Source of the DNA: Nonlabens sp.
GTDB taxonomy: Bacteria > Bacteroidota > Bacteroidia > Flavobacteriales > Flavobacteriaceae
DNA: 64,000 bases
Direction of reading: 5' to 3'
Assembly (NCBI GenBank): GCA_020630715.1
Contig: JAHDIQ010000008.1
Coordinates: forward strand, 62,001-126,000
Positions 2-59,200 of the stretch are shown piece by piece. Position numbers and translations under genes: made by a program. The notes beneath the pieces were generated by a model. The model was not told where the DNA came from, did no database searches, and saw nothing but the letters and a program-made list of their open reading frames with translations. The first letter of the stretch is position 1; the number at the start of each line of letters is the position of its first letter.

Positions 2-772
2 CTACTAGATGAACATCGGTCACTTTCTACAGAAACTTTAAATGCATTTAAAAAAGTAGCTCATTTACCTGTGATATTGATTTCTGCACGTATGCCACAG
101 GCGATGTATTACTTACAAGAATTATTGAACCGCAGTGAAATGCCTGTGATTTGTTATAACGGTGCATTGATAAAGGATCAGGATGAGGTGATTTATAGCA
201 CCACGATAGAATATGCATTATTAGAGCAATTAGCTCAAATAGCTGTAAACCATAACCTTCACGTTAGTATTTACAGAGATGATGAATGGTTTGTGCCAGC
301 ATTAGATTTCTGGGCACAGCGAGAGATTAACAATACCAGAGTTCAACCTATCGTTCAAGAGGTTAGTGATACATTGGAATATTTTAAACATACTCGAGAA
401 AAAGGTGGTGCTCACAAAGTGATGTTTATGGGCGATGAGGTTGCTATGAATCTCGCTTTCGCGAAAGCGGAATCACTTCCATCTTCCCTGCATTTATATA
501 GATCTAAGAATACCTACACAGAGATATCACCCGTTAGCATTTCAAAGAAAACCGCATTAGAATTAGTCTTGCAAAGCAAATTCCCGAAAGTAGTAATCGA
601 GAATGTTGTGGCTTTTGGCGATAATTATAATGATGTAGAAATGATCGATGCGGTAGGCTATGGCGTCGCGGTGTCAAATGCTCGTGATGCTGTGAAAAAA
701 GTAGCACGGTTTGAAACCGCACATCACAAAGAACATGGCGTTGCGTTATGGATCGAGAAATATGTAAAATAA
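2..772 (+). CDS. Cof-type HAD-superfamily phosphatase, 5'-truncated by window edge
   Basis: The reading frame is open from the first bases of the window: residues LLDEHRSLST read directly into the rest of the protein, so the DxDGT nucleophile motif that precedes LLD in this family lies just outside. The apparent GTG start at 71 is therefore internal. Visible family features are the S/T motif II (LISAR), a cap-domain middle part and the C-terminal motif GDNYNDVEMID, which binds Mg2+ in HAD IIB (Cof/YidA-type) sugar-phosphate phosphatases. About 256 residues are inside the window. Cytosolic; the exact phosphorylated substrate cannot be told from sequence. The gene carries a copy of the 16-bp palindrome read as AFAKA. 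It converges on the next gene through a shared hairpin. Confidence 0.85.
   Translation, partial: LLDEHRSLSTETLNAFKKVAHLPVILISARMPQAMYYLQELLNRSEMPVICYNGALIKDQDEVIYSTTIEYALLEQLAQIAVNHNLHVSIYRDDEWFVPALDFWAQREINNTRVQPIVQEVSDTLEYFKHTREKGGAHKVMFMGDEVAMNLAFAKAESLPSSLHLYRSKNTYTEISPVSISKKTALELVLQSKFPKVVIENVVAFGDNYNDVEMIDAVGYGVAVSNARDAVKKVARFETAHHKEHGVALWIEKYVK
454..469. repeat. CGCTTTCGCGAAAGCG palindrome, perfect copy
   Basis: Exact 16-bp copy inside the HAD phosphatase gene, read as A-F-A-K-A in the cap domain. Confidence 0.9.
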
Positions 773-776
773 AAAA

Positions 777-799
777 TGCGACTTTTTACAAAAGTCGCA
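777..799. terminator. bidirectional hairpin terminator
   Basis: A 10-bp stem (tgcgactttt / aaaagtcgca) with a 3-nt loop sits between two convergent genes (stops at 772 and 822), so it can serve both. The flanking T/A runs are part of the stem. Confidence 0.7.
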
Positions 800-821
800 C
801 CTATATAAATTGAGTTAGATA

Positions 822-1361
822 TTACTCTATAACAATAATATCTGATTCACTAATCTTACCTACATTGATTACGCTATTGTAATCTGTGATGTCTAGAGTA
901 GGATCGTTAGCAAGATCTACGGGCAGTATTACTATCCTAAAAATTTGATTATCAATATCTGCTGGGGCCAACAGGTTAAAATCTGTACTCGCAGGACCGT
1001 CTAGAAATATGTCGACATCTATGAAGGTAGATTCATAATTATAGGCAAATTCACCAAAATCGCTGTATACAGTTTGTGGTAGTAATCGCCAGATATCTAT
1101 AGTACCACCATCAGTAGCAGGTACTTCATCCCATAGAATGTATACCAATATCATATCTGTTTCTAAAACTTCAATGTCAGTAGGATGGTCTATCCTAAAG
1201 CCATAATCAGGTGCTGTAAAATTTCGTTGAATCTCGTACGATTGTGCGACAATATTCTGTCCATCAAGACCATTTATACCGTTTAATCCAGGAGGACCTG
1301 ATGGTCCAGTACAAGAAATGAATGCTGCTGTAATTGCTAAAAGTAAAATTATCTTTTTCAT
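822..1361 (-). CDS. lipoprotein with short collagen-like repeat
   Basis: 179 residues. The N-terminus is a lipoprotein signal (MKK, hydrophobic core, then FISC), so the mature protein should start at Cys17 and be anchored in the outer membrane or exported. Directly after the cysteine come six Gly-x-y triplets (GPS GPP GLN GIN GLD GQN), a collagen-like stretch that is common at the start of Bacteroidota surface lipoproteins. The remaining ~140 residues are acidic and beta-rich in appearance and match no family I recognise. Transcribed divergently from the TPR gene, with only 52 bp between the two start codons. Function unknown. Confidence 0.75.
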   Translation of the reverse strand: MKKIILLLAITAAFISCTGPSGPPGLNGINGLDGQNIVAQSYEIQRNFTAPDYGFRIDHPTDIEVLETDMILVYILWDEVPATDGGTIDIWRLLPQTVYSDFGEFAYNYESTFIDVDIFLDGPASTDFNLLAPADIDNQIFRIVILPVDLANDPTLDITDYNSVINVGKISESDIIVIE

Positions 1362-3053: not shown

Positions 3054-3054
3054 A

Positions 3055-4209
3055 TCAATCATTGATCGTACGATTTGCCCATTGGACTTTTTGGGTGCTT
3101 TTTAATGCAACTGCGATTACTATAAATGGATATAAAAAGAGTTGTGGTAAAAGATAAAGAGACCATTTTTTATTCTCAAAAAAACGATGTCCTACTACCA
3201 GAACAATAGTGTCTACAAGTATTTTAGGTAATAAAATCAATACCAGTACTATAAAAGAAACAATACCCATAACAAACAATAATGGCGTGATTACAAATGC
3301 CAGATTCATAAGCAATATCTGAAAGCTAACCAATTTGTTGAGGTTACTTTTAGTCTGTGTGCCTTTTTGTGCCCAGCGAGCTCGCTGTGAAATCATACTT
3401 TTAAAATCCGTTTTAGGAAAGGTCTGTACGATGGCATCTTCTGATTTTAAATAATGGCAATTCATCACATCTTCTGCAACTAGTTTTTCAAGTAAGAAGA
3501 TGTCATCGCCACTAGAAATATGATCGTTACCGTCGTAACCATCTACTTCTAGGAAAGCATTTTTTGTAAAAGACATATTAGCACCATTACACATAAACGG
3601 TTGACGTTGTGAAAATGCTCCTATACTTACCATTTGTAGTGCGACCATTTCGGCATGCTGTAATTGTGTGATAATGGAATCATTTGTGGTAATTTGAACA
3701 GGTCCAGCTACAAAATGTGCGTTCTCATGAAAATGATATAAATCATTATAGCTATTAATCCATGCGCTAGGTAGGATCACATCTGCATCTGTGCAAATGA
3801 TGTGTTGGTTTTTTGTGAGAGCGACCGCTTGTGTAATTCCATCTTTTTTTGCGCTGGCACTTTTCTTAATTCGGTTAATGCGGTGAATATTCCATTGCTT
3901 ATGATTGCTGGTGAACTCTTCTAAAATATGATTACTATCATCCGTTGAATGATCGTTGATGAAATACCATTCCACTAATTCTTTCTGATAATTTAAACGT
4001 AATAAACTGGCCAAAAATGCTGGCAAATGATCTGCTTCATTCCTGTAATTTACTATGATGGTGAATGGTAAAAAGCCTTTAGTGGTTTGCGCATCTGTCA
4101 CGAGATCTGTAGGTCGTTTTCTAAAGGTTTTGTACAAAAAACCATCTAAAGCTAAACTTAGGATGATTAAGATATATCCTAACGAAGTTATGATTGCTAG
4201 CCACATCAT
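3055..4209 (-). CDS. membrane glycosyltransferase, family 2
   Basis: 384 residues. An N-terminal TM helix (residues ~3-25) is followed by a GT-A domain: FTIIVNYRNEADHL at the nucleotide-binding start, DADV as the metal-binding DxD, GDDIFLLEK as the acceptor/catalytic region and SQRARW as the Q-x-x-R-W motif of processive-type family 2 enzymes. Three to four hydrophobic helices follow (about 295-345 and 355-375). It should transfer a sugar from a nucleotide donor to a lipid or glycan at the inner membrane. Its start codon overlaps the stop of the upstream flippase-like gene (ATGA), so the two form one unit and probably one envelope-glycan or glycolipid step. Confidence 0.85.
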   Translation of the reverse strand: MMWLAIITSLGYILIILSLALDGFLYKTFRKRPTDLVTDAQTTKGFLPFTIIVNYRNEADHLPAFLASLLRLNYQKELVEWYFINDHSTDDSNHILEEFTSNHKQWNIHRINRIKKSASAKKDGITQAVALTKNQHIICTDADVILPSAWINSYNDLYHFHENAHFVAGPVQITTNDSIITQLQHAEMVALQMVSIGAFSQRQPFMCNGANMSFTKNAFLEVDGYDGNDHISSGDDIFLLEKLVAEDVMNCHYLKSEDAIVQTFPKTDFKSMISQRARWAQKGTQTKSNLNKLVSFQILLMNLAFVITPLLFVMGIVSFIVLVLILLPKILVDTIVLVVGHRFFENKKWSLYLLPQLFLYPFIVIAVALKSTQKVQWANRTIND

Positions 4210-5111
4210 ACCACGCTTACTTTAAACTTGTAAAACGGTAAAATTATAGCACCTATTACAGTAGGAATAATGCTGTTTGTAAACCACACGATAGTCGTTG
4301 CGATCAGTATCATTTCATCTGGTAATACAGAACCCGAAAACACAAAAGTGGCAACGGTCCATCGTACAGGAATATCCAGAAACTGAATAACAGGAATGAT
4401 AGAGAATAGGAAATACATCACCGCCGTTTTTTGTGCGATTAAAAAAACCGAATCCGTACAACCTAATGCTTTTAAAATAATGATCCAGTTTACCGCAAAA
4501 AGCAGATATCGTACAAAAGAATAAAGAGTAACAACCACCAGCTTATTTATAGGTAGTGCCGTAAGACTCCATTTTTTAAATACCCAAATGCCAAAAACCA
4601 CCACTAGCATAAAAAGAGCAATCACCACTATGTAGACCATAAAACTAAGATCCAGCGTGTCTAAAACAAAAGAACTACCTAACAATCCTAAAATCAATGT
4701 AATGGATAGCTGTGATAGATTGCCTACCAGCACGTGTCCTGCGATTTCTTTGCGTAAGGTTGCGGGAAAGAGCGCTGTTTTGGTTGCAAATTCTCCCGCT
4801 CTAAATGGCGTGATATAACTTGCGGTTTGAGCAATTAGGTTTTGAATTACGCTTTCGCGAAAGCGTAATTTCCACAAATCATCTATTAAATATTGCCATT
4901 TCTTACTTTCCACCATCCAGCTAGAAAGACTAAAGCATATCATTAGCGGAATCACATACCACGAGAGATGAGCAAGATCATTTTCTAGCTTGCTTAATTC
5001 AATAGGACGTTGTTGCCATTGATAGATAATTACAGCAATGCATACTGCTGTAACTAGGATTTTAATCGCAGGTACTAGGAATTGCTTAGATTTGTTCCAC
5101 AGGGCTTTCAC
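4206..5111 (-). CDS. flippase-like / LPG synthase TM-type integral membrane protein
   Basis: About 301 residues if started at the GTG at 5111; longer readings would run into ruvC, which starts at 5131 on the other strand. There are seven to eight hydrophobic helices, and the pattern (TPFRAGEFATKTALFP, then a conserved region ending in an inner-membrane helix) is that of the UPF0104/lysylphosphatidylglycerol-synthase TM family, often annotated as flippase-like. Paired by a 4-nt overlap with a family 2 glycosyltransferase, it may move or modify the glycolipid product. It holds a perfect copy of the 16-bp palindrome, read RFRES. Confidence 0.75.
   Translation of the reverse strand: MKALWNKSKQFLVPAIKILVTAVCIAVIIYQWQQRPIELSKLENDLAHLSWYVIPLMICFSLSSWMVESKKWQYLIDDLWKLRFRESVIQNLIAQTASYITPFRAGEFATKTALFPATLRKEIAGHVLVGNLSQLSITLILGLLGSSFVLDTLDLSFMVYIVVIALFMLVVVFGIWVFKKWSLTALPINKLVVVTLYSFVRYLLFAVNWIIILKALGCTDSVFLIAQKTAVMYFLFSIIPVIQFLDIPVRWTVATFVFSGSVLPDEMILIATTIVWFTNSIIPTVIGAIILPFYKFKVSVV
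4850..4865. repeat. CGCTTTCGCGAAAGCG palindrome, perfect copy
   Basis: Exact copy in the flippase-like gene; symmetry extends to 26 bp (4845-4870, aatta on the left, taatt on the right). Read as R-F-R-E-S. Confidence 0.9.
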
Positions 5112-5130
5112 GCCTTGAAAAATACGACAA

Positions 5131-5685
5131 TTGGCAACAGAAAAAATCATTTTAGGAATTGATCCAGGAACAGCGTTGATGGGTTTTGGAGTGATTAAAG
5201 TCACGGGAAAGAAAATGACATTTCTGCAAATGAATGAGTTAGACCTGCGTAAGTACAAAGATCATTATGTGAAACTGCGTAAGATTTTTGAACGTACTTT
5301 AGAATTAATTGACACCTATAATCCTGATGAAATTGCGCTGGAAGCGCCGTTTTTTGGCAAAAATGTGCAATCCATGCTTAAATTAGGTCGCGCACAAGGA
5401 GTTGCTATGGCAGCAGGATTATCAAGAGATATTCCAGTAACAGAATATGCGCCACGACGTATCAAGCAATCCATAACTGGTCGTGGTACCGCAAGTAAAG
5501 AGCAAGTCGCCCAAATGTTACAAAGCATTTTAGGTTTTAAAGAAATGCCTAAAAACCTAGACATGACAGATGGACTTGCCGCAGCAGTTTGTCATTTTTA
5601 TTCTAGCGGTAAAGTAGTAGGCGGTAAAAGCTATACGGGCTGGGCAGCCTTTGTAAAGCAGAATGAAAAACGAGTGAAGAAGTGA
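5131..5685 (+). CDS. ruvC: crossover junction endodeoxyribonuclease RuvC
   Basis: 184 residues, usual length. RuvC resolves Holliday junctions with RuvAB. The four acidic metal ligands are visible: D11 in LGIDPGT, E71 in IALEAPFFGKN, and D144/D147 in LDMTDGLAAAV; the DNA-contact segment SITGRGTASKEQV is intact. The start is a TTG at 5131: an in-frame stop lies at 5116-5118 and there is no ATG before the GIDPGT motif. Only 19 bp separate it from the divergent GTG of the flippase-like gene, so the promoters must overlap the coding ends. Confidence 0.95.
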   Translation: MATEKIILGIDPGTALMGFGVIKVTGKKMTFLQMNELDLRKYKDHYVKLRKIFERTLELIDTYNPDEIALEAPFFGKNVQSMLKLGRAQGVAMAAGLSRDIPVTEYAPRRIKQSITGRGTASKEQVAQMLQSILGFKEMPKNLDMTDGLAAAVCHFYSSGKVVGGKSYTGWAAFVKQNEKRVKK

Positions 5686-6019: not shown

Positions 6020-6634
6020 ATGAGTAATTGCTTAATCATATTTACACGTAATCCAGAATTAGGAAAAGGAAAACGCCGTCTTGCCGCTACGGTAGGTGAT
6101 CAGGCAGCCTTTGATATTTATAAGTTCTTGCTAGCGCATACCAGAAAAATCACTAGAGATCTGGATGCCGTAAAACAGGTGTGGTACAGTGAGCAATTGC
6201 ATCTGGATGACGACTGGGATAATGCAGTTTATGAAAAGTATGTTCAGGCTGGTGAGGATTTAGGTGATCGTATGAATTACGCTTTTGCAAAAGCGATAAA
6301 AGAACACTCAAAAGTAATCATCATAGGAAGTGATTTACATGATTTAAACCAACGAGATCTAGAACAAGCTTTTAAATTGTTAGATGATCATGACGCGGTG
6401 ATAGGACCAGCAACAGATGGTGGTTATTACTTATTAGGTTTTAAAAATGAAGTGCCAGTAAATCTATTCTCAAATAAAATTTGGGGAACAGACACGGTTT
6501 TAAACGAGACTTTAAAAGATTTAGAAACATTAAACTATGCGACGTTAGCACCACGTAATGATGTAGATTATTATGAGGACATTAAAGACGTTCCCGCATT
6601 TCAACCTTATTTAAAAAATATACATGTTAAGTAA
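6020..6634 (+). CDS. TIGR04282 (DUF2064) arsenosugar-type glycosyltransferase
   Basis: 204 residues from ATG 6020 (a TTG at 6011 would add three residues). The protein is a small GT-A-like nucleotidyl/glycosyl transferase: MSNCLIIFTRNPELGKGKRR at the start, GDLGDRM in the middle, then GSDLHDL and a GPATDGGYYLLGF signature, which together define the DUF2064/TIGR04282 family. In characterised gene neighbourhoods this family occurs with arsenosugar biosynthesis genes, and here the following genes (purine nucleoside phosphorylase, DUF547, TIGR04283) repeat that order. It overlaps the next gene by 11 bp. A variant palindrome is read AFAKA. Confidence 0.8.
   Translation: MSNCLIIFTRNPELGKGKRRLAATVGDQAAFDIYKFLLAHTRKITRDLDAVKQVWYSEQLHLDDDWDNAVYEKYVQAGEDLGDRMNYAFAKAIKEHSKVIIIGSDLHDLNQRDLEQAFKLLDDHDAVIGPATDGGYYLLGFKNEVPVNLFSNKIWGTDTVLNETLKDLETLNYATLAPRNDVDYYEDIKDVPAFQPYLKNIHVK
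6280..6295. repeat. palindrome variant CGCTTTTGCAAAAGCG
   Basis: Two symmetrical changes from the consensus keep the dyad perfect. It lies in the TIGR04282 gene, read A-F-A-K-A. Confidence 0.75.
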
Positions 6635-8352: not shown

Positions 8353-9090
8353 ATGATCAGTATTATTATTCCTGTTTTTAATGAAGAGCATACGATTGTT
8401 GAATTGTTAAATCATTTGGTTGAAAAAGCAAGTCAGCCTGATCACCTAGAGTTAATCGTAGTAGATGGTGGTAGTGTGGATAAAACGAGTTCTAAAGTTT
8501 ACGCTTTCGCGAAAGCGAATCCAGAATTATCATTGCAGTTTCAACAAGCCTCTAAAGGTCGTGGATCACAAATGCACGCAGGCTCGCAAATTGCCAAAGG
8601 CGAAATTCTATATTTTCTTCACGCAGATTCGTTCCCGCCAAAAGATTATGACAAGCATATCGTAAATGCAGTAAAAAATGGACATCAAGCAGGATGTTTT
8701 AGGATGCGTTTTGACAGCTGGAACTGGTGGCTCATCATCATAGGATGGTTTACGAGATTTTCATGGCGCGTAAGTCGTGGTGGTGATCAATCACAGTATA
8801 TTACGAAAGAATTGTATGAGGAAATAGGTGGTTACAACACTAGTATTCCTATTTATGAAGACTATGATTTAATTCATAAGTTATATGAAAATGAAACTTT
8901 TCATGTCATACCTAAATGGCTTACAACTAGCGCGCGCAGATATAGGGAAATAGGTGTTTATAAGTTACAATGGTTCTACATCACGATTTACTGGAAAAAG
9001 CGTAATGGTGCTAGTATAGAAGAGATTTACCAGTATTATTTAGAATGGTGTGAAACCTCAAAGCCAGAAAAGGTAATAAGCTCATCTTAG
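8353..9090 (+). CDS. TIGR04283 arsenosugar-type glycosyltransferase, family 2
   Basis: 245 residues. GT-A fold: ISIIIPVFNEEHTI at the start, VVDGGSVDKT, FLHADSFPP in the metal-binding DxD position, and GGDQSQYITKELYEEIGGY then IPIYEDYDL, all marks of the TIGR04283 subfamily. No TM helix is obvious beyond a short hydrophobic stretch (WWLIIIGWF). It is the fourth gene of the run and ends 4 bp inside the convergent HD gene. A perfect 16-bp palindrome is read AFAKA. Predicted to add a sugar in the arsenosugar pathway by family and context only. Confidence 0.8.
   Translation: MISIIIPVFNEEHTIVELLNHLVEKASQPDHLELIVVDGGSVDKTSSKVYAFAKANPELSLQFQQASKGRGSQMHAGSQIAKGEILYFLHADSFPPKDYDKHIVNAVKNGHQAGCFRMRFDSWNWWLIIIGWFTRFSWRVSRGGDQSQYITKELYEEIGGYNTSIPIYEDYDLIHKLYENETFHVIPKWLTTSARRYREIGVYKLQWFYITIYWKKRNGASIEEIYQYYLEWCETSKPEKVISSS
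8502..8517. repeat. CGCTTTCGCGAAAGCG palindrome, perfect copy
   Basis: Exact copy in the TIGR04283 gene, read A-F-A-K-A in a variable part of the GT-A domain. Confidence 0.9.
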
Positions 9091-11669: not shown

Positions 11670-12553
11670 AAATGATCATTGCTGGTGGTACTGGATTTCT
11701 AGGTAAATCCTTATCACGTTATTTTAAAAGTAAAGGAGATGAAGTGATTACGCTTTCGCGAAAGCATAATAAAAACAACACCTACTGGGACGGCACGACC
11801 ATAGGTGACTGGTCACAACATCTAGAAGGTGCAGACGTGCTAATTAACCTAGCAGGAAAGTCTGTAGATTGTAGGTATACCGATGCTAATAAAAAAGCAA
11901 TATTAAACTCACGTATAGATTCAACTCGAGTTTTAAATGAGGCGATGTCGCAATGTAAAACACCGCCCAAAGTGTTTTTAAATGCAAGCACGGCAACGAT
12001 TTATATACATTCTGAAACGCAACTTAATACTGAAGCAAACGGAATCATAGGTGATGATTTTTCTATGGGAATAGGAAAGGCATGGGAAAAAGAATTTTTC
12101 TCTACTACAATTCCAGAAGTTAGGAAAGTAGCCTTGCGTACTTCTATAGTTCTAGGAAATGATGGTGGAGCATTGCCTAAAATGAAAATGATTACTAGAT
12201 TAGGAATGGGCGGAAAACAAGGTCGTGGTCACCAAAAAATAAGTTGGATTCACATAGACGATTTCTGTAAATCGATTGATTTTTTAATCCAGTCAGATCT
12301 GGATGGTGTGGTGAATATTACGGCACCACAACCAGAAACAAACATCGATTTTATGAGCCAACTGCGCAAATCTATGAAGATGCCTTTTGGGATTTCACAA
12401 CCGGTATGGTTATTAGAATTAGGCGCTATGATGATAGGAACTGAGACAGAACTGCTTTTAAAAAGCCGTAATGTTTATCCACAACGGTTGCTGGATAGTG
12501 GATTTGTATTTGAATATGAACAGCTAGAAGATTGCCTGAGCGATCTTATTTAA
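11666..12553 (+). CDS. TIGR01777 family epimerase/oxidoreductase (DUF1731)
   Basis: 295 residues. A Rossmann fold starts immediately (MKMIIAGGTGFLGKSLSRYF, G-x-x-G-x-x-G), with LINLAGKSVDCRYT and the extended-SDR region LRTSIVLGNDGGALPKM; the C-terminal DUF1731 segment is present. Family members (YfcH, SULA relatives) bind NAD(P); no substrate is assured. Overlaps the DCC gene by 4 bp and the convergent M1 peptidase gene by 8 bp. A near-perfect palindrome copy is read TLSRKH. Confidence 0.85.
   Translation: MKMIIAGGTGFLGKSLSRYFKSKGDEVITLSRKHNKNNTYWDGTTIGDWSQHLEGADVLINLAGKSVDCRYTDANKKAILNSRIDSTRVLNEAMSQCKTPPKVFLNASTATIYIHSETQLNTEANGIIGDDFSMGIGKAWEKEFFSTTIPEVRKVALRTSIVLGNDGGALPKMKMITRLGMGGKQGRGHQKISWIHIDDFCKSIDFLIQSDLDGVVNITAPQPETNIDFMSQLRKSMKMPFGISQPVWLLELGAMMIGTETELLLKSRNVYPQRLLDSGFVFEYEQLEDCLSDLI
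11751..11766. repeat. palindrome copy, one change (last base A)
   Basis: CGCTTTCGCGAAAGCA in the TIGR01777 gene, read L-S-R-K-H, the third possible reading frame. Confidence 0.8.
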
Positions 12554-15018: not shown

Positions 15019-16026
15019 TTAATAACTGCCATACGCTTTAATAATCACTTCTTGTGCCATTTTATCCTGTGGTGTAAATCGCTTTTCAAATCCACGCCAT
15101 CTACTTTGTTCTGCGTGATATTTCCATATAAAACCACCAGCCATCCATTCCTCATTCCATATAGATTCATATAAACCTTTGAACAAATTTGCTTGCGCTT
15201 GCTGGTTTACCGCACGGTCGTCACCAGCATTTTTCCACGGTTCTTTACCAGCATAATCTGCACTAATGTAACCGTATTCAGTAAAAAGGATTTTTTTATT
15301 CCGATTTCGCGAAAGCGAACTCAAATCAACTTTCCATTTTTCCCACGATGCTTTTATACTAGCTAGCGACGGCGTTTTTTCTTCACTCATAGGAAAATAA
15401 GCATCTACACCTATAAAATCCAGTTGTTCCCAGAAATGTACCTGATCATAATTATCCCAATTAGCCGCATAAGTCAATTTACCCTTGTAAATTTCACGGA
15501 TGTCTTTAATAAGTTGATCCCAATAAGCAGGACGTTGTTTCACAAAGGAATCCAGCTCTGTACCTATACAAAACATCTCAATATTTTCTTGAACTGCAAT
15601 ATGGACAAATCGCATGATGTAATCTGTATAGGTTTGCTCCAGTATGCTCCAGTCTGCTTCTGATATTAAATTGATATCACCAGTATAAGCACCGCGACCT
15701 ATCCATAGTTGAGGTTTAAGCAACACCTTTAATTGTTGCTCTTTCATCAATGCATTGGTTTTTTTAACACCATGAGGTTTCTCGCCCCAGTCGCCACGAT
15801 TTTCATCATAATAAATCTGCGGTTCCTCCAGACTTTTCATCCATGCGTAAGGAACAATGACTGCATAATTTGCATTAAAATTTACAATAGGAGTAATCGC
15901 TATTGAATCTATAGGATTGTTTGTAGCAACTAGGGTAATGCCATTGATTTTTTCAGGCACTTGTGATTCTAAGTTTTCACAGCTTAGTGTAATTACTAAA
16001 GTTAATATAACAACTATTGCACGCAT
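15019..16026 (-). CDS. glycoside hydrolase family 113-like lipoprotein
   Basis: 335 residues with a lipoprotein signal (VITLSC, Cys16). The rest is a TIM barrel: VLLKPQLWIGRG, FCIGTELDSF with the putative acid/base E157, FIGVDAYFP and KILFTEYGY with the putative nucleophile E250, a clan GH-A layout as in GH113 beta-mannanases. WAGGFIWKYH-like sequence near the end (GGFIWKYHAEQ) completes the site. It probably acts at the cell surface on a beta-linked polysaccharide, but no transporter or sulfatase genes are nearby, so it is not in a polysaccharide-utilisation locus here. A one-mismatch palindrome is read LSRNR. Confidence 0.8.
   Translation of the reverse strand: MRAIVVILTLVITLSCENLESQVPEKINGITLVATNNPIDSIAITPIVNFNANYAVIVPYAWMKSLEEPQIYYDENRGDWGEKPHGVKKTNALMKEQQLKVLLKPQLWIGRGAYTGDINLISEADWSILEQTYTDYIMRFVHIAVQENIEMFCIGTELDSFVKQRPAYWDQLIKDIREIYKGKLTYAANWDNYDQVHFWEQLDFIGVDAYFPMSEEKTPSLASIKASWEKWKVDLSSLSRNRNKKILFTEYGYISADYAGKEPWKNAGDDRAVNQQAQANLFKGLYESIWNEEWMAGGFIWKYHAEQSRWRGFEKRFTPQDKMAQEVIIKAYGSY
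15302..15317. repeat. palindrome copy, one change
   Basis: CGATTTCGCGAAAGCG in the GH113-like gene, read (minus strand) L-S-R-N-R. Confidence 0.75.
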
Positions 16027-19148: not shown

Positions 19149-19164
19149 CGCTTTCGCGAAAGCA
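19149..19164. repeat. palindrome copy, one change, intergenic
   Basis: CGCTTTCGCGAAAGCA starts 9 bp after the polyferredoxin stop. The remaining gap to 19316 shows no gene; an actcaaag direct repeat lies near 19283-19300. Confidence 0.8.
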
Positions 19165-21027: not shown

Positions 21028-21067
21028 GATGGAAGTTTTATCGTTGTGCAAAGTTAGAGTTTTATTT

Positions 21068-39878: not shown

Positions 39879-39913
39879 TTGCCTAATCGGTAGACTATTA
39901 ATCGTTAATTTTG
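39879..39913 (+). promoter_or_regulatory. promoter of rsmG
   Basis: TTG (39879-39881), 24-nt spacer, TAATTTTG (39906-39913). Transcription would start near 39920, after the TTG codon at 39911, which supports the GTG at 39929 as the true start of rsmG. Confidence 0.55.
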
Positions 39914-39928
39914 CACAAACTATTGACA

Positions 39929-44120: not shown

Positions 44121-45749
44121 CTACTCTCCTAAAAAAGGATATCTATAGTCTGTAGGAGTTACAAAGGTTTCTTTAATCATACGTGGTGAAACCCATCGTA
44201 GAAGATTTAATTTAGAACCAGCTTTATCATTTGTTCCAGATGCTCTCGCACCGCCAAATGGTTGTTGACCTACAACAGCTCCTGTACATTTATCATTTAT
44301 ATAAAAATTACCAGCACAGTTTTCTAATGCTTTAGTAGCTTGCTGTACTGCATAACGATCTTGTCCCATAATAGAACCAGTTAAGGCATACTCGCTAGTT
44401 TCGTCCACTAATTTTAAGGTAGCTTCATAGGCATCATCTTCATAAACAAAAATGGTAATAACAGGACCAAAAAGTTCTGTTTCCATCGTTGCGTATTTAG
44501 GATTAGTAGTTACGATTACCGTAGGATCTACAAACCATCCTTTAGACTTATCGCAATTTCCGCCTATGATAACCTCTGCATCTGTATCTTGTTTTGCATT
44601 ATTGATGTAAGATTCTAGCTTGTCAAATGATCCTTCATGAATAACTGCAGTAATGAAGTTACTCATATCTTCTGGAGATCCCATTTTAAAACTATCTATA
44701 GCTGCTCGCAGGTGTTTTTCTACTTCTGGCCAGATTGATTTAGGAATGTATGCTCTAGAAGCAGCACTACATTTTTGACCTTGGAATTCAAATGCTCCAC
44801 GTGCTATAGCAGTAGCCACTTGTTTAGGCACTGCACTGGAGTGAGCCATGATAAAGTCCTTACCACCAGTTTCTCCTACGATTTTAGGATAAGTTTTATA
44901 GGTATTAATATTCTCACCTATTTTAGTCCATAACGATCTAAACACTGACGTTGATCCTGTGAAATGAACACCAGCAAAATCCGGATGAGTCATTACTTCA
45001 TCAGTCATCATCACTGGATCTGCATTTACCATATTAATCACACCATCTGGTACTCCAGCCTCTCTAAAAATGTCTACAATAATCTGTGCGCTTAACATCT
45101 GGTGATCACTAGGTTTCCACACACATACATTACCCATAAGTGCTGCACTGGCTGGTAAATTACCTGCTATCGCAGTAAAGTTAAATGGAGATATACAGTA
45201 TACAAAACCTTCTAGCGGTCTGTATTCTAATCTGTTCCATGCATCGCTGGTAGATTCTGGTTGCTCTTCATAAATCTCTGTCATGAATTGCACATTGAAT
45301 CTTAAGAAGTCTATTAATTCACATGCAGCATCAATTTCTGCCTGAAAAATGGTCTTAGACTGGTTAATCATGGTTGCAGCATTAATTCTGTCGCGGTATG
45401 GACCAGCGATTAATTCTGCAGCTTTTAAGAAGATTCCAGCACGATGTTCCCAACTCATTTGAGACCATTGCTTACGTGCTGCTAATGCGCTGTTAATAGC
45501 ATCTTGAACCTCGCTTTTTCCTGCTCTATAGTAAGTTCCTACCACTTTTTGATGATCGTGCGGTGGACGTATGTCGCTAGTATTTCCTGTACGTACCTCT
45601 TTACCGTTAATGTATAGCGGTACTTCTGTATTTGCATTCCATAATTGCTTGTAGGCAGCTAGTACTGATTCTCTTTCTGGTGAACCAGGAGCGTATGATT
45701 TAATAGGCTCATTTACAGCTACTGGTACTTGAAAAAATCCTTTTCCCAT
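44121..45749 (-). CDS. pruA: L-glutamate gamma-semialdehyde dehydrogenase (1-pyrroline-5-carboxylate dehydrogenase)
   Basis: 542 residues. Oxidises glutamate semialdehyde to glutamate with NAD+ in proline breakdown. ALDH marks: KPSDHQMLSAQ, HFTGSTSVFRSLW, the catalytic Glu in KIVGETGGKDF, the nucleophilic Cys in FEFQGQKCSAASRAY, and LFGPVITIFVY. The start MGKGFFQVPVAVNEPIKSY matches the flavobacterial PruA type. No proline dehydrogenase gene is adjacent. Confidence 0.95.
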   Translation of the reverse strand: MGKGFFQVPVAVNEPIKSYAPGSPERESVLAAYKQLWNANTEVPLYINGKEVRTGNTSDIRPPHDHQKVVGTYYRAGKSEVQDAINSALAARKQWSQMSWEHRAGIFLKAAELIAGPYRDRINAATMINQSKTIFQAEIDAACELIDFLRFNVQFMTEIYEEQPESTSDAWNRLEYRPLEGFVYCISPFNFTAIAGNLPASAALMGNVCVWKPSDHQMLSAQIIVDIFREAGVPDGVINMVNADPVMMTDEVMTHPDFAGVHFTGSTSVFRSLWTKIGENINTYKTYPKIVGETGGKDFIMAHSSAVPKQVATAIARGAFEFQGQKCSAASRAYIPKSIWPEVEKHLRAAIDSFKMGSPEDMSNFITAVIHEGSFDKLESYINNAKQDTDAEVIIGGNCDKSKGWFVDPTVIVTTNPKYATMETELFGPVITIFVYEDDAYEATLKLVDETSEYALTGSIMGQDRYAVQQATKALENCAGNFYINDKCTGAVVGQQPFGGARASGTNDKAGSKLNLLRWVSPRMIKETFVTPTDYRYPFLGE

Positions 45750-45843: not shown

Positions 45844-45859
45844 CGCTTTCGCGAAAGCG
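45844..45859. repeat. CGCTTTCGCGAAAGCG palindrome, perfect copy, intergenic
   Basis: Exact copy between the divergent sides of pruA and apaG, 35 bp from the apaG stop, symmetry extended as gacgc...gcgtaa. Confidence 0.9.
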
Positions 45860-45894: not shown

Positions 45895-46281
45895 TTAATT
45901 AAGAGCAAATGGTGCGCTCAATTTAAAAGTAGGAATGTCAACAGTAAACTGCTTAGTAGTGGTGAAATCAACCATAGAATAAAAACCGCCCATATTACCA
46001 AAAGGTGACGCCAGTAAACAGCCACTTTGATACGTATGAGTTTCACCAGGTTTAATTACTGGTTTTTTACCTATCACTCCTTCACCATTAATGTGTTCTG
46101 TGCGACTTAAGCTGTCTTTTATATTCCAGTGTCTATGTACTAATTGCACAGAATTCTTACTTTGATTTTCTATAGAAATCACATAGGCAAAAGCATAGTG
46201 CATCTTATAATTTTTATAAAATGTACCTTCAAAACTGGTATGAACCGAAATTTTGATGCCTCTTGTGATTTGTTGTATCAT
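45895..46281 (-). CDS. apaG: ApaG domain protein
   Basis: 128 residues, full ApaG length. Fibronectin-III-like fold: FYKNYKMHYAFAYVISIENQS near the start, LVHRHWNIKDS, GEGVIGKKPVIKPGETHTYQSGC and GFYSMVDFTT. Linked to Co2+/Mg2+ efflux in enterobacteria and to protein partners elsewhere; the role here is open. It lies 3 bp downstream of the DUF3667 gene. Confidence 0.92.
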   Translation of the reverse strand: MIQQITRGIKISVHTSFEGTFYKNYKMHYAFAYVISIENQSKNSVQLVHRHWNIKDSLSRTEHINGEGVIGKKPVIKPGETHTYQSGCLLASPFGNMGGFYSMVDFTTTKQFTVDIPTFKLSAPFALN

Positions 46282-48485: not shown

Positions 48486-48518
48486 AAAACACCTGAGAAT
48501 TAAATTCTTGGGTGTTTT
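48486..48518. terminator. bidirectional terminator
   Basis: 16-bp stem with two G-T pairs (arms aaaacacctgagaatt / aattcttgggtgtttt) between the small membrane gene and the convergent DUF5103 gene, whose stop lies inside it. Confidence 0.8.
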
Positions 48519-49773
48519 AATTTCTAATAGTAGCGCTATTACCAGCGCCCATTCCTATAAGTCTATCGTAGCGTCCACCTGGTTCTCTATAATAGGCAAG
48601 CACGGTATAGGTGTTTTCTGTTTGCCATAAATTTCCAGATATGAATCCTGGATCTTGTTCACCATTATCATAAACTACAGTATACCTATAATTATAGAAT
48701 CCTTGTTTTAATAAAATGGTAGCTTCATACATACGTCTTTTCTCATTGTAAACCATTTTATTTTCTTCATGCAATTGATATGCATTATAGTTACCCATGA
48801 CATAAATACTGGCATCTGGTGGTAGATTGAATAATGGTGCTAATGCAAAATGAATGTTTACATATTCTGCCTGCACAGCATTATCTTCATTAGTAAGCGT
48901 GGTTACAATAAAATTTCCATTAATATCTGGATTGAAGGTGTACTCATTTCCTATTCTAGGGCGATCTACAAATAGAAAGGCTTCATAAAGATCATTTTTT
49001 TCTACATAATCTATATTCATATTAGGTGCTCTAAAATCCCTGTTTTCAAAATGTAAAAACTCATTTCCAGCCCAGAATGATGATTCACTGTCATAACGGT
49101 ATTCCTGCCTGTTTCCTAAATTGAATTGTGGTTTTAAACCGTAAAGTGCGGTCTCCAGCTCCGTGTTTTGAATTATAACGGTATGCAGTGTTTCTTCTGG
49201 ATTAATGAAATTAATCGTAGGTGAGTCTATAAAAAATTGAACGCGTTGCTGGCTATTGATAAAGTTGTTATCTCTAGCGCGTAAAATTTCAACGCCTACT
49301 TGAGCTTCATTTTCTATGATCATGAATTTGCGTGAAAAGATCAATTCGCGCTTATCATCATAAAAATGAATCATATAATTACCGCTTACCTTAAATCCCT
49401 GCGTGAACTGATTAGGAATGGTTAACATGTAATGAGAGTAAGGTTGTATCGTAGTAAATGAATTACGATAGTCAAAAATCCTCATATCATCAATTCCTTC
49501 TAGAAACTCATTTTTAAATAGTCTACTAGGATTCCAGTTGTGATCGTAATGTTCAAACTGATAGTAGTAATCATGCTCATCACCTATGACATCGTCAAAT
49601 TCAATTCTGATCGTTTCTCCCAACTTATAAACTGGAAGCATATTTTCAGGCGATTTGTTGAACGTTACAGTTTTAATATAGTCAGGATCATCAACAACCT
49701 CATCCATGGTCTGACCGTTTAGTAGAAAAATATTTGTTAAAAGTGTAATCGTTAAAATATATACCGACCTCAT
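48517..49773 (-). CDS. type IX secretion system plug protein (DUF5103)
   Basis: 418 residues from ATG 49773, which starts a signal peptide (MRSVYILTITLLTNIFLLNGQ). The mature protein carries the DUF5103 sequence: DDPDYIKTVTFNKSPENMLPV, an N-terminal beta domain with YYYQFEHYDHNW, then ILRARDNNFINSQQRVQFFID and a C-terminal DUF5103 part ending GRYDRLIGMG. In the structure of the SprA translocon a protein of this family plugs the open channel. With porT and the cargo at 60 kb it shows that T9SS is in use. Confidence 0.85.
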   Translation of the reverse strand: MRSVYILTITLLTNIFLLNGQTMDEVVDDPDYIKTVTFNKSPENMLPVYKLGETIRIEFDDVIGDEHDYYYQFEHYDHNWNPSRLFKNEFLEGIDDMRIFDYRNSFTTIQPYSHYMLTIPNQFTQGFKVSGNYMIHFYDDKRELIFSRKFMIIENEAQVGVEILRARDNNFINSQQRVQFFIDSPTINFINPEETLHTVIIQNTELETALYGLKPQFNLGNRQEYRYDSESSFWAGNEFLHFENRDFRAPNMNIDYVEKNDLYEAFLFVDRPRIGNEYTFNPDINGNFIVTTLTNEDNAVQAEYVNIHFALAPLFNLPPDASIYVMGNYNAYQLHEENKMVYNEKRRMYEATILLKQGFYNYRYTVVYDNGEQDPGFISGNLWQTENTYTVLAYYREPGGRYDRLIGMGAGNSATIRN

Positions 49774-49822
49774 AAGTGTAAAAATCTGTGATAAATATAG
49801 CGTTTTATGTGCTTGTTTATTA

Positions 49823-49838
49823 TGCTTTTGCGAAAGCG
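49823..49838. repeat. palindrome variant, two changes, intergenic
   Basis: TGCTTTTGCGAAAGCG between the plug-protein gene and the nqr operon. Confidence 0.55.
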
Positions 49839-49917
49839 ATGCCAAAACTACATTATTTACTTATTTAGATTTATTCTAAATAAATTTGAACAGCCCGATT
49901 ATGACTGTTTTATCGCG

Positions 49918-53333: not shown

Positions 53334-53978
53334 ATGGCATTACTATCTAAAAAAGACAGCAAGTTATTAAAAGATCCTTTACTGGATAACAATCCCATTA
53401 CCATTCAGGTATTAGGAATATGTTCTGCACTTGCGATCACGGCAGAGCTAAAGGCATCTATCGTAATGACCGTTTCTGTACTATTTGTTATGGGTGTAGG
53501 TAACGTCGTTATTTCTTTAATGCGTAATATCATTCCATCTAAAATTAGAATTATCGTACAGCTAGTAGTGGTAGCATCACTAGTAATTATTGTAGATCAG
53601 GTACTTAAAGCCTTTGCTTACGAGCTCAGTAAAACCCTATCGGTATTTGTAGGATTGATTATTACTAACTGTATTATTATGGGACGTTTTGAAGCATTTG
53701 CTTTAGGAAATGGACCCTATAGATCATTCCTAGATGGAATAGGTAATGCAGCAGGATATGGTTTTATACTAATCCTAGTAGGTTTCTTTAGAGAGTTATT
53801 AGGTTCTGGTACTTTATTAGGTATTTCAGTACTAGGTGATCCTATCGCAAAAACTGGATTATACGCAATAGGTTATGAAAATAACGGTTTCATGTTACTT
53901 TCTCCTATGGCGTTGATCGTTGTAGGATTAATTATCTGGGTACAACGTGCTAGAAACAAAGATTTAATAGAAGACTAG
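53334..53978 (+). CDS. nqrD: Na+-translocating NADH:quinone reductase subunit D
   Basis: 214 residues, six TM helices: KDPLLDNNPITIQVLGICSAL at the start, IVGLIITNCIIMGR-type helix (VGLIITNCIIMGRFEAFALGN), and GNAAGYGFILILVGFFRELLGSG. Forms, with NqrE, the inverted pair that holds a Fe-S/Cys site (ICS, TNC). Two bp after nqrC; the next gene starts 63 bp further, after a palindrome copy. Confidence 0.95.
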   Translation: MALLSKKDSKLLKDPLLDNNPITIQVLGICSALAITAELKASIVMTVSVLFVMGVGNVVISLMRNIIPSKIRIIVQLVVVASLVIIVDQVLKAFAYELSKTLSVFVGLIITNCIIMGRFEAFALGNGPYRSFLDGIGNAAGYGFILILVGFFRELLGSGTLLGISVLGDPIAKTGLYAIGYENNGFMLLSPMALIVVGLIIWVQRARNKDLIED

Positions 53979-54007: not shown

Positions 54008-54023
54008 CGCTTTCGCGAAAGCG
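54008..54023. repeat. CGCTTTCGCGAAAGCG palindrome, perfect copy, inside the nqr operon
   Basis: Exact copy in the 63-bp gap between nqrD and nqrE, the only sizeable gap in the operon. Confidence 0.9.
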
Positions 54024-54041: not shown

Positions 54042-54776
54042 ATGGAACATATAGAATTATTTTTTAAGTCCATCTTTATAGATAACATGGTTTTTGCAAC
54101 ATTCTTAGGAATGTGCTCTTATCTAGCGGTATCTAAAAAAGTAACAACATCCGTAGGAATGGGTGCAGCAGTAGTATTTGTATTAGGAATCACTGTACCA
54201 TTAAACTGGTTACTGGATCAATACATATTACAACCAGGTGCTTTATCATGGTTAGGTGCAGATTTTGCAAGCTATGATTTAAGTTTCCTTTCATTCATCA
54301 TGTTTATCGCAACGATAGCAACGATGGTACAGTTAGTAGAAATTGTGATAGAGAAATTTTCTCCATCATTGTATAACTCTCTAGGTATATTTTTACCATT
54401 GATCGCAGTAAACTGTGCGATTCTAGGTGGATCACTCTTCATGCAATCGCGTGAGATAGCATCGATAGATCTTGCATTTAACTATGGTATATCATCAGGT
54501 ATAGGATGGTTCCTAGCTATCCTTGCTATTGCCGCAATCCGTGAGAAAATACGTTACAGTTCAGTACCAGCACCATTACGTGGATTAGGAATTACTTTTA
54601 TTATTACTGGTTTAATGGCGATAGGTTTCATGAGTTTTGGTGGAATGCTAACCGGTGGTGATGAAGCAAAAGAAGAGAAAAAAGAAGTGGTTGAGAAATC
54701 TGTTATCCTAGAAGATAAGTTATCAGATGATACTACGACTACAGAGTTAGATGATAAGTTAACGCAAGCAAATTAG
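54042..54776 (+). CDS. nqrE: Na+-translocating NADH:quinone reductase subunit E
   Basis: 244 residues. Six TM helices: [24 protein letters not shown] with the conserved [37 protein letters not shown] with VNC, and [21 protein letters not shown]. Typical NqrE ends soon after; here about 40 further acidic/lysine residues ([12 protein letters not shown] and a D/T-rich end) form a soluble tail. Function of the tail unknown. Confidence 0.94.
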
Positions 54777-56091: not shown

Positions 56092-56117
56092 TTATATCTT
56101 TAAATTGACATTAGATC

Positions 56118-56146
56118 AACCCAACTCTGTAGAGTTGGGTTTTTTA
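56118..56146 (+). terminator. intrinsic terminator of the nqr operon
   Basis: 11-bp stem (aacccaactct / agagttgggtt) with a tiny loop and a following T run. Confidence 0.9.
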
Positions 56147-56215
56147 TTAGACGATCTTTAAGAAATACATTCAGTTTGCTTTAAATTGATATCTTTAAGC
56201 GAATTATGAAATGAT

Positions 56216-59200
56216 ATGAAAAGAGTGGACATAGTGACTACGTTAAGGTCGTCACTAATTGTTTTGTGCCTTCTTTGTTCGGCGATACTTTATAGTCAAG
56301 TCTATCACGAGGTTTTTACTTCTCGCGATGGTCTATCTATAGATTATGTGGAAGATATCGTTCAGGATGATTTTGGTTTTTTATGGATTTCTGGATCTAG
56401 GCTGGACAATAGAGAAATAATTGCCAAATCCAGTCCCGTTTCTCTTCAACGTTTTGATGGTAAAAACTTCCACAATTTTAATATTCAATTTCAAAAAAAA
56501 CCTATTCAGGTGAGCAAAATGTTACCCTATCGGGACTCGTTACTGTTGCTATATTCAAAGAATGATAATATAGATGTTATAGTTGAATTTAATCCTAATA
56601 GCACTAATTATCAACATATTGAAAATAATGATTTTGAAAATGTTGCAAACGTAAGGAAGGTAGAAGATCATTATTATTTGCTTAATGCTACAGGTACTAA
56701 AATAGATGTATCACATTTTAATGAAGACCATACGGTAGGGTCGTTGTTCTCTTTTGAAAATGAGGTTAATGTTATTAATATCGACCGCAATACTCAGTTT
56801 ATAGCATTTAAGGATTTATTCATTTTTAGTGATAAATACTTTCCTATAGTTATTACAGGTAGAGATGGTGTAGAGGTCAAAAGATTTTCAAATAAAAATT
56901 TTAATAGAGCGCGCAACCTCATTTCAAATAAATTGTGGATTGAGCAACACTTCATCCATGATAATGAGCTATATGCTTTTATGGGTAATGATGATAGGTT
57001 ATATAAATTTAATAAAAACACCTTAAGATTTGAGGTGATTATAGACGGGTATTTTGTAGGTAAAACAGCTCTCAAAACTTTTAAAGACAGCTCTGGAAAT
57101 CTTGTAATTGCTTATATCAGTAATGACAGACTTAACCTAGTAACCATTGATAATGAAGAGGTTGTTCCTATCCATAGTCATACGGTTAACAATTCTACAA
57201 CCATTCAACTATGGTCCCAAAATGTAAAAAATGAATTATGGCTAGCTACAAAAAACGAAATTCATTATTATAAGTTTTCTAACAATCAGTTTGAGAAGTT
57301 TCTATTAGATCATCAAATGCGAGCAATTAAGCGCATTGAAGATGAAAACTACTTAATTGCAACTGAAGATGGTGGCTGGTATTCGTATAATCACTTGAGT
57401 AAAAAGGTGATGAAATTTCCTGTGTTTGAAAATGGTAAGGAAATTATTTTGAATTCTTCTAGAAACATCATTGTAGATAAGGACACCTTGTGGTCTCATT
57501 CTTCTGGTAATATGGTTGCAATACACAGGAAAACGGGTAATACCATATCCTATCGCGATTACCCAGTTCAATGCCTAGAACAGTTAAATGATAGTGTTAT
57601 TGTCTCTGGGACAAAACATTATAACTTAATGAGTTTTAATATCGCTTCAAGAACTTTTGAGGCATTGGTAAAAACAGATTCATTAAATCATATAGATTTA
57701 TCAATAGATCAAGACAAAGAATGGATAGTAACGGCGACTCAACAGGGAATCTTTAAATATAATCTTAAGGATAAAACATCATCTCTTATTTCTACAGGTC
57801 TTAAAGACAACTATTTTCTAGTATCAGATTATTTTAATGACTATGGATTTTTATTAGGAACTAGAGATGGAAATATCGTAAAATTCAATCCACAGGATGA
57901 TACCGTTTCCATAATTTATGAAGATACTTTGAATGCTGGGATTGCAACGATTATACCTTATGAAAATGATTTATGGATCTCTACCTTCAATGGATTAGTC
58001 CATTTTGATCCTATGCTTCAAAAGTCTACCAGATATTCAATTAAAGATGGTTTGTCCCATAATGAAGGTAATAGATATAGTGCATCTTATACTTCTAATG
58101 GTATACTCGCTGGTAGTTTATCAGGAATAAATCATTTTGTGCCTCAAGATTTAGTAGCACAGCAGTCACGTGATTCTTTGAGTTTGCTAAAAATTCGAAA
58201 ATTTAATCCTAAGTTAAACTCTTTTGTTGATGTGTATGATAAGTCCGCTTTCGCGAAAGCGAAAACCATCAAACTACCCGTTGAAAATAAGCAGTTAGAG
58301 CTAGAATATTCTCTTACTGGGTTAGATGTGTTACGTAATGAGTCTTATGAATACAGACTTGATGACAATGATTGGGTAACCTTAGGTGATAAGAAAAAGT
58401 TACAATTTTTAAATCTTGCATCTGGTGAATATGATCTAGAACTAAGAGCAAGAGATTTTTCAGGTGAACTTATAGGAAAACCGTTGTTGTTGAAAATTAA
58501 TTCAGAAGATTTTTTTTATAAAAAATGGTGGTTTATTGTATTGATATCTTTAACCATAATAACACTCTTAGTCTATTTTTTAAAGCAGGAAAAATTAAAA
58601 AAATTGATGCAAGTTCAATTTTCTCAGGATTTAATCGAGAAACAAGAGTTAGAAAGATCAAGAATTGCAAAGGAATTGCATGATAGTGTAGGTCAACAAT
58701 TGACTTTAATTAAACAGACAGCACAGAATGAAGAATTAAATCATATCTCAGTATTAACTAATTCTACACTAGAGGAAGTTCGTAGCATTTCTCGCAACTT
58801 ATATCCTGCAAATCTTCATAGACTTGGTTTTAAAGCTAGTGTTGAGCAATTACTAGAAGATATTGATGAACAGACTGATATGTTTATAGATTTAGAGATT
58901 GAAAACATTGATCGGTTTTTAGATCAAAGAGCTACACTGAATTTATATAGATTCATTCAAGAAGCTGTTTCAAATGTAATTAAACATGCAAGGTCTAAAA
59001 CGCTACAAATACATATTACTAGTGAAACAAATGTTATAAATGTTTCCATTATTGATAAGGGTACTGGATTCAAAAACTCTACAGAATTGATGAAAAACTC
59101 TCTAGGACTAAAAACATTAGAGGAACGTATTAAAATTATTAATGGTAATTTAGAAATCCTAAGTGTCATAGGAAAAGGAACTGAATTAAAATCAACGATT

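Follow-up and report, generated by a model that had tools for sequence, protein, structure and literature searches.

Why does a single 16-bp palindrome, CGCTTTCGCGAAAGCG, return again and again along one piece of a Nonlabens genome? In the window (i.e., the whole 64-kb stretch of DNA analysed here) it has ten exact copies and eight with one or two changes, six differing at one position and two at two, and all eighteen coordinates given by an earlier sequence-only reading were borne out (sites are listed without strand, ORF strands in brackets):

454..469: exact, coding in the AFAKA frame, ORF 71..772 (forward)
4850..4865: exact, coding in the RFRES frame, ORF 4206..5258 (reverse)
6280..6295: two compensating changes with the dyad kept, coding, AFAKA
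8502..8517: exact, coding, AFAKA
11751..11766: one change, coding in the LSRK frame
15302..15317: one change, coding, LSRNR, ORF 15019..16026 (reverse)
17739..17754: one change, coding, AFAKA
19149..19164: one change, intergenic, 9 bp past the ORF ending at 19140
21068..21083: exact, between ORFs 20371..21051 and 21152..21808
23544..23559: one change, between convergent ORFs 22951..23520 (forward) and 23651..25915 (reverse)
26088..26103: exact, outside ORFs of at least 100 aa, upstream of ORF 23651..25915 (reverse)
29775..29790: exact, in fba, RFRES frame
35052..35067: exact, between divergent ORFs 34223..34954 (reverse) and 35147..36520 (forward)
40109..40124: one change, coding in the RFRES frame, ORF 39911..40570 (forward)
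45844..45859: exact, between ORFs 44121..45749 and 45895..46281
49823..49838: two changes, 5′ edge of ORF 48517..49845 (reverse), which has a TTG start and whose true start may be further in
54008..54023: exact, between ORFs 53334..53978 and 54042..54776
58246..58261: exact, coding, AFAKA, ORF 56216..59218 (forward)

The site at 26088..26103 is present in all four Nonlabens sequences where it was aligned, and the one in fba (29775..29790) is exact in all nine other Nonlabens sequences aligned.

The first observation of this word was correct, and it was understated. One hundred dinucleotide shuffles of the window give on average 0.10 matches at up to three mismatches, and the excess holds genome-wide, since the 2.98-Mb source genome contains 678 sites with at most one mismatch, against none for a reversed-pattern control over the same genome. 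The claim had been tied to a count above a third-order Markov expectation; in 464 kb of the source genome TTTCGCGAAA occurs 99 times where that model expects 0.19. In these 464 kb, 65 copies are exact, 35 carry one mismatch, 11 two, 3 three and 7 four, the exact form being a perfect palindrome and its outermost base the most variable; Nonlabens samples hold 216–258 sites per Mb. That variants keep the dyad, as had also been proposed, is true of the site at 6280, a perfect dyad, whilst the other seven of the window break one or two pairs. Compensated double changes make up 4 of 11 two-mismatch sites in the 464 kb, 1 of 14 in a Dokdonia sample, 0 of 9 in genome G004 and 0 of 10 in genome G234. 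So sharp a consensus was counted in favour of a tag for uptake or recombination.

All three coding frames are used, as claimed earlier (RFRES 14, LSRK 15 and AFAKA 35 of the 64 coding sites in the source sample), and the likening of the word to HIP1 of cyanobacteria holds in the broad sense of a palindrome recurring within genes as well as between them, in which the DNA and not the peptide is conserved. By simple ORF calling, site density is 0.65–0.97 per kb in intergenic and 0.15–0.20 per kb in coding DNA, i.e., a three- to six-fold intergenic enrichment, which recalls known uptake sequences (under-represented in coding DNA according to PMC7811141) and was therefore counted for the same tag.

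The sites lie about every 4,000 letters (mean gap in the source genome 3.4–4.5 kb), and their spacing is unusually even. Its CV in the window is 0.39, an evenness reached in 3 of 100,000 uniform placements; over 108 gaps of the source genome it is 0.51, as opposed to 1.00 when sites are placed at random with a five-fold preference for intergenic DNA, and only 2 of these gaps are under 1 kb where 24.8 are expected, none of 2000 simulations going as low. Dokdonia gives a CV of 0.61 over 67 gaps, with 5 short (<1 kb) gaps against 19.7 expected. Sites thus repel each other at short range, and in the source genome long gaps are rare as well as short ones. This regularity goes beyond what the sequence-only reading had noted. 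Neisserial DUS spacing agrees with the size of conversion fragments (PMC2397512), whilst PMC1939737 cites Karlin for the view that Haemophilus USS are evenly spaced and itself argues that their spacing is too uneven for a role in compaction; the evenness seen here could suit compaction better, a point against the tag. Likened to that of DUS and USS, the even spacing was counted for the tag.

How a site can originate is visible in fba, where orthologues with and without a copy, a comparison suggested earlier as a check, were set side by side. The exact word stands in 7 of 7 Nonlabens loci, whereas all 71 readable non-carrier loci (of 72) differ from it at 6–12 of the 16 positions and the single Dokdonia locus at 9 of 16; fba is equally long whether the genome is a carrier or not (355 codons matched over 1065 bases). 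The fba site arose by in-frame substitution, with the protein sequence overridden, and such overriding in all seven Nonlabens loci was again counted for the tag. At one codon position of comEC the site is found in all eight Dokdonia (seven exact, one with one change) and in G234, and in none of ten Nonlabens and three non-carriers. Sites therefore differ between genera at fba and comEC and are not all ancestral.

Outside the 16 bp there are base preferences and no common sequence: the 5′ flank of each strand is G/T-rich and C-poor, the 3′ flank G-poor. The adjacent flank base alone pairs above expectation (z 5.7), positions 2 to 25 pairing at chance (largest z 2.1 of 24). C-poor 5′ and G-poor 3′ flanks that do not pair with each other point to a reader that is a symmetric protein and recognises about 48 bp of double-stranded DNA.

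The word is found in all 22 other Nonlabens genomes searched (362–897 copies each), in all 18 Dokdonia genomes (333–939) and in one further genus (377 copies). Other Flavobacteriaceae genomes drawn hold 0–27 copies and those drawn from the phylum at most 8, several of the larger counts outside the carrier genera lying within transferred islands; Leeuwenhoekiella-like genomes, which group with Dokdonia, are near background. Full site density is thus confined to three genera among those searched. No other palindromic dialect of comparable strength appeared in seven sets (~1.37 Mb in total); because most of these sets combine ~20-kb pieces from several genera, a dialect could have escaped notice in a genus with few samples. 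IMG/VR phage contigs carry sites (at least six exact on a 37-kb contig, at least four on a 24-kb contig), as do 78 kb of one island (21 sites), so acquired DNA is not always site-poor; two Nonlabens phages (70.7 kb) have none at up to three mismatches. A gap in exact sites in Dokdonia (G439:C1:282–321 kb) was rejected as an acquired island, since it contains a repetitive ORF of 4,951 codons as well as some sites that are inexact.

These results suggest that the word is a mark of self read by some protein, most likely in DNA uptake and recombination. Our best explanation, put forward tentatively, is that the palindrome serves as a tag for uptake or recombination and accumulates through biased exchange; the dimeric reader, the role in uptake or recombination and the drive are what we infer. 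The word would be the core of a two-fold symmetric duplex site of about 48 bp for a dimeric protein, and in the three carrier genera it would label self DNA for uptake, recombination or both. Uptake or recombination would favour fragments that hold a site; through this biased exchange (i.e., molecular drive) sites would spread and be repaired, up to the point where a site lies on most fragments a few kb long. It is possible, though we would lean on it less, that in Nonlabens and Dokdonia this palindromic tag of self DNA is read by a dimeric receptor belonging to a transformation system that needs no pilus.

From its sequence alone the word may be likened to the DUS of Neisseriaceae and the USS of Pasteurellaceae, with their role in uptake: hundreds of near-exact, evenly spaced copies, scarce in coding DNA, with extended weak flanks, an origin by substitution (here at fba only) and confinement to a few genera. 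It differs in being a 16-bp palindrome with symmetric flanks, in its spacing of ~4 kb against ~1–1.5 kb (PMC7811141 and PMC2397512), and in its host, a member of the Bacteroidota, where competent Riemerella transforms naturally with no pilus homologues detected, according to PMC8459023. That pilus-less transformation, together with ComEC (PF03772) in 33 of 33 carriers tested, was counted for the tag; ComEC does not discriminate carriers, however, because it is also present in 20 of the 21 genomes tested that fall short of full density. Our literature search on competence in Dokdonia gave no report for that genus among the papers listed. To our knowledge the known uptake sequences are not palindromic, which weakens the tag reading, as do the sites on phage contigs and the island and the lack of any receptor or binder among the candidates tried (ParB, two methylase families and the comEC neighbourhood, syntenic between the source genome and Dokdonia and with no obvious candidate in either). 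Sequence identity as a function of distance from the sites showed no clear recombination signature, with alignments for only 49 of the 162 site-by-sequence cells.

The main rival, which we think rather unlikely, is an anchor site, each copy maintained by selection, at which a dimeric protein of nucleoid-organising or occlusion type would bridge the chromosome or fold it into loops at intervals of a few kb. The palindrome with symmetric, non-pairing flanks would suit it, as would the rarity of both short and long gaps and the near-host density of sites on phage contigs and the island. Selection would, however, have to override codons, as in fba, at hundreds of places, related genera manage without the word, and no gradient is evident in 20-kb samples taken along the 3.19-Mb contig G004:C4, except that one end has a site-poor stretch. 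The parS and Noc-binding sites of the ParB family are likewise 16-bp palindromes with TTTC..GAAA arms, but the copies here are far more numerous, and ParB, the one candidate tested for this rival, was rejected as the reader, with no carrier-wide change in its HTH among the 30 of 41 genomes aligned: six Dokdonia and G234 read GKNRST, as does the non-carrier G029, and GKSRSA occurs only in the three Nonlabens aligned. ParB copy number is one in 36 of the 41 genomes and two in five, extras falling in carriers and non-carriers alike.

A Chi-like palindromic mark of self, stopping or licensing end-processing nucleases and loading RecA in either direction, is improbable. The mean gap of the source genome is near the E. 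coli chi density of about one per 4–5 kb, and the G/T-rich, C-poor 5′ flanks would fit the preference of RecA for GT-rich DNA. Known chi sites, though, are oriented signals of 5–8 nt (the octamer class being read by RecBCD/AddAB), and a 16-bp palindrome is very long by comparison and has no orientation.

Still less probable is an origin like the one proposed for HIP1 in cyanobacteria, in which a DNA methylase acts together with methyl-directed repair. The palindrome with its CGCG core would agree with it, and so would the variable outermost base, a trait of HIP1 and the alternate HIPs (reported for HIP1 in PMC4390886). HIP1 is the best-known palindromic case, and PMC4390886 calls its function a mystery. 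But HIPs are short and number about 1000–2000 per Mb in that paper, the present word being twice as long as HIP1 and about 4–9 times rarer. Nor is there a constant methylase among the two families tested: 10 of 21 carriers lack a match to the C5 family PF00145, 21 of 33 lack one over the cut-off to PF01555, and 6 of the 21 tested for both match neither above cut-off. As constant partners, C5 and N6/N4 methylases are rejected for these two families, which set the scope of the test, and the suggestion of a methylase recognising TTCGCGAA is to that extent unsupported.

A single-strand hairpin or RNA element (terminator-like) is hardly credible: the 24-nt form does fold as DNA (−8.2 kcal/mol, z −2.8 against shuffles), but the covariation sought for a hairpin or cruciform stops at the adjacent flank base, 191 of 304 sites lie in coding sequence, and convergent positions make up only 2 of 34, 9 of 32 and 6 of 43 classified intergenic sites. 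The mini-hairpin property attributed to GCGAAAGC did not emerge in the folding calculation. The dispersed insertion unit (REP- or MITE-like) also considered by the sequence-only reading can be dismissed almost entirely, since, despite the many near-identical copies, it is refuted at fba, the one locus studied in detail, where codons are replaced with no change of length in 7 of 7 loci, and the flanks share no common sequence.

Our literature searches found no published description of the word, in agreement with the earlier statement that it has no named element, and we know of few bacterial groups in which a single long word recurs by the hundred across the genome. This one is twice the length of HIP1, nearly invariant and quantitatively spaced. 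Two genera that have cultured members carry it at full density in all their genomes searched, and Leeuwenhoekiella-like genomes are near background, which should make the reader findable by comparison and pull-down and allow models of drive, compaction and repair to be tested against each other on this word. It also marks DNA exported from the carrier genera, islands in other Flavobacteriaceae suggesting the direction of transfer. If the tag of self DNA, read in uptake, is the true explanation, this would be the first uptake-sequence dialect of the Bacteroidota, with an origin independent of DUS and USS.

The 16-bp palindrome is present at all 18 places of the window where the sequence-only reading had put it (ten exact copies, six with one change and two with two), against 0.10 matches expected by chance from dinucleotide shuffles. 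The proposed excess over a third-order Markov model holds as well: in 464 kb of the genome (the window and 400 kb of further stretches) TTTCGCGAAA occurs 99 times where 0.19 are expected, and all 99 copies of TTCGCGAA fall within it. Sites with 0, 1, 2, 3 and 4 changes number 65, 35, 11, 3 and 7 in this sample, i.e., the consensus is sharp and there is no cloud of half-matches; 23 of the 35 one-base variants are changed at the outermost position, and positions 4 and 5 are invariant among them. Counted genome-wide (our sequence samples cover about 6–16 percent of each genome), there are 678 sites with at most one mismatch, the control giving 0.

Among the genomes searched, such density is a property of few genera. 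The fba gene of the window is 88–93 percent identical to that of seven Nonlabens loci and at most 84 percent identical to the remaining 73 of the 80 loci kept, and the other Nonlabens (22 genomes searched) have 362–897 sites each. Among 397 genomes drawn from the family, full density is reached only by the drawn Nonlabens, by G250 (879 sites) and by G234 (377), the one genome representing its genus; about 85 have 1–27 sites and the rest none. The genus of G250, with 333–939 sites in all of its 18 genomes, we take to be Dokdonia, because one member (G447) and a Dokdonia MAG (L052) have identical fba genes. Among 395 genomes drawn from the phylum the maximum, our own genome aside, is 8 sites. 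In the fba tree a cluster with support 0.99 unites Dokdonia, two Leeuwenhoekiella and G188, a genome with three exact sites within 26 kb of one contig and nine scattered one-mismatch sites (12 in all), in whose genus a second genome has 8, scattered and one-mismatch; Nonlabens is placed weakly (0.09) near that cluster, and G234 branches elsewhere. Judging from these counts and placements, the trait appears patchy and may have been lost, gained twice or passed on, a single gene being a thin basis. In 200 kb of G234 (L119-L128) the density is about half and the exact share lower (8 exact, 16 one-change and 10 two-change sites), and a young or decaying set is suggested.

That the DNA word, and not a peptide, is conserved could be confirmed in fba and comEC, where it overlies codons. 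At one place in fba all seven Nonlabens read CGC TTT CGC GAA AGC G (RFRES); 71 of 72 loci from non-carriers (i.e., genomes below full density) are readable there, and all 71 differ at 6–12 of the 16 bases, the peptide being typically K-H-Y-K-E-T-G-K-like, and Dokdonia L052 has 9 differences from the word. The length of the gene is unchanged, and the word is therefore a product of substitution. In comEC the pattern is reversed: all eight Dokdonia have a site at one codon position (seven exact, one with one change), and none of ten Nonlabens or three non-carriers has it. G234 has a site at the same codon (L304:804) as Dokdonia (L297-L303, L197), though the two are apart in the fba tree; shared descent, gene transfer and a permissive spot are the alternatives. 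Within Nonlabens, sites are retained at one mismatch or less in 41 of 49 aligned site-by-sequence cells, an upper view, as only 49 of 162 cells aligned and alignment favours conserved places; identity in the Nonlabens alignments is 0.92 within sites and 0.68–0.77 within 1.6 kb.

By crude gene calls (a simple ORF search based on ATG starts and 80 codons), coding and intergenic sites number 64 and 36 in our genome, 70 and 33 in another Nonlabens (G004) and 57 and 44 in Dokdonia, with densities of 0.15–0.20 per kb in coding and 0.65–0.97 per kb in intergenic DNA. The AFAKA frame is favoured (35 of 64, 42 of 70 and 34 of 57 coding sites, respectively), and the majority of intergenic sites lie between tandem genes. 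Twenty 20-kb samples along one contig (G004:C4) hold 2–9 sites each at up to two mismatches, the lowest three at one contig end and two of them AT-rich. In a Dokdonia genome (G439), a highly repetitive ORF of 4,951 codons runs across a site-free stretch (L204:5125-19980), beside what are presumably one OmpA-like and one PorP/SprF-like ORF. Two adjacent minus-strand ORFs of similar repetitive sequence in the window (60546-62252) are probably a repetitive gene of the plus strand read in antisense.

The strongest new fact of this analysis is the even spacing of the sites. Over 108 gaps in four contiguous stretches of our genome (sites with up to two mismatches) the coefficient of variation is 0.51, against 1.00 under a null of equal site number and five-fold intergenic weight, and none of 2000 simulations is as low, the exact significance depending on the null (the other spacing tests used uniform or Poisson ones). 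Only 2 gaps are shorter than 1 kb (24.8 expected) and 13 shorter than 2 kb (42.8 expected). Dokdonia behaves similarly (67 gaps in a stretch that includes 5 kb of N, CV 0.61, 5 gaps below 1 kb against 19.7 expected). With exact sites only, gaps below 1 kb are 2 against 12.1 expected in G004 and 2 against 13.4 in G439, where the CV (0.96) is not low.

The sites extend into their flanks. In both Nonlabens genomes and in Dokdonia, positions -16 to -4 have C at 0.05–0.09 and G at 0.26–0.31, mirrored at the right; this bias is equal at exact and one-mismatch sites, weak in G234, and absent around control 8-bp palindromes (396, 556 and 403 controls). T is at its highest at -2 and -1, with a milder excess at -5, -8 and -10/-11, intergenic sites included. 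Compared position by position over 304 sites, the two flanks are complementary only to the extent that their composition predicts, the adjacent base being the exception (z of 5.7; none of the other 24 offsets exceeds 2.1). The sites therefore conserve no long hairpin, and each half is probably read on its own, as would be expected of a symmetric protein on about 48 bp of duplex DNA.

Outside the carrier genera, the fetched site-bearing segments are mostly DNA 67–97 percent identical over kilobases, and at least four non-carriers have in common segments in which a 933-bp pair of sites is identical. In G120 all 21 sites are confined to 78 kb of one contig, at 0.27 per kb, about carrier density. 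The flank signature is retained at 44 sites of such transferred-looking stretches, and we read the islands, from their sequence, as DNA probably once resident in a carrier, a reading which covers those followed up, part of the small non-carrier counts. Two of them (G120:C3:32330-110030 and G330:C5:177798-239844) are 60–80 kb islands at carrier density in a genus otherwise without sites, G330 having further sites on C4 and C9, and a 1460-bp site spacing is common to both. Another, L086:529-8564 (G131:C1; relatives L081, L083, L084, L087, L091 and L093), is a metal-efflux-like island with palindromes and the recurring 933-bp pair, widespread in non-carrier Flavobacteriaceae. Its products include one like a multicopper oxidase together with efflux proteins of RND and outer-membrane type (in L086 itself, judged from sequence, the first of these and an RND efflux-like protein), and a carrier genus seems to be its origin.

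Even with three mismatches allowed, no site is present in the 70.7 kb of the two sequenced Nonlabens phages (P12024S and P12024L), where host density would predict about 15. Exact sites do occur in 41 IMG/VR stretches, and genes for tape-measure, baseplate or integrase proteins lie on two of these contigs; phages can therefore carry sites. Among the matches listed, IMGVR_UViG_3300040781_000495 (37 kb; L166, L149, L169) has at least six exact sites and IMGVR_UViG_3300036669_000050 (L134, L150, L157) at least four, some inside structural genes, in contrast to the site-free P12024S and P12024L.

ParB, found in 41 of 41 genomes, was considered as the reader and rejected: in 30 aligned recognition regions three Nonlabens have their own GKSRSA, and six Dokdonia and G234 have the GKNRST of non-carriers such as G029, so that no change is common to carriers. 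The neighbourhood of comEC, inspected for a reader, is ordinary. In the open-licence literature we found no description of the word, its cores, or Nonlabens or Dokdonia palindromes or repeats, nor any under uptake sequences in Bacteroidetes.

What has to be explained is a long, symmetric and near-perfect site in hundreds of copies, in some genera only, arising by substitution even in fba, and seldom closer than about 1 kb or far apart. Selection of the required strength at each site is hard to credit. Because a process that copies sites would explain the set cheaply, we tentatively favour the word as an uptake or recombination tag, against which stand its palindromic form, the sites on phages, the search for a reader (ParB, two methylase families, comEC neighbourhood) without result, and the lack of pilus homologues in competent Riemerella, as stated in PMC8459023. 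According to PMC1939737, an even distribution used to be seen as pointing to replication, repair or compaction, and that paper argues that the Haemophilus sequences are insufficiently even for such a role. Regular spacing would also be expected of compaction, and the sites here are very even; we consider that role, the main rival, rather unlikely. A chi-like role, which fits the site density and the G/T-rich flanks, seems improbable. The methylase which the sequence-only reading had suggested looking for is a very improbable reader, neither of two families tested being a constant partner: 10 of 21 carriers lack PF00145, 21 of 33 give no PF01555 hit above the cut-off, and neither family is present in 6 of 21. 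If the word is an uptake or recombination tag, a second site in a fragment would add no benefit, resulting in repulsion between sites, and a long site-free gap would be a disadvantage and so get filled.
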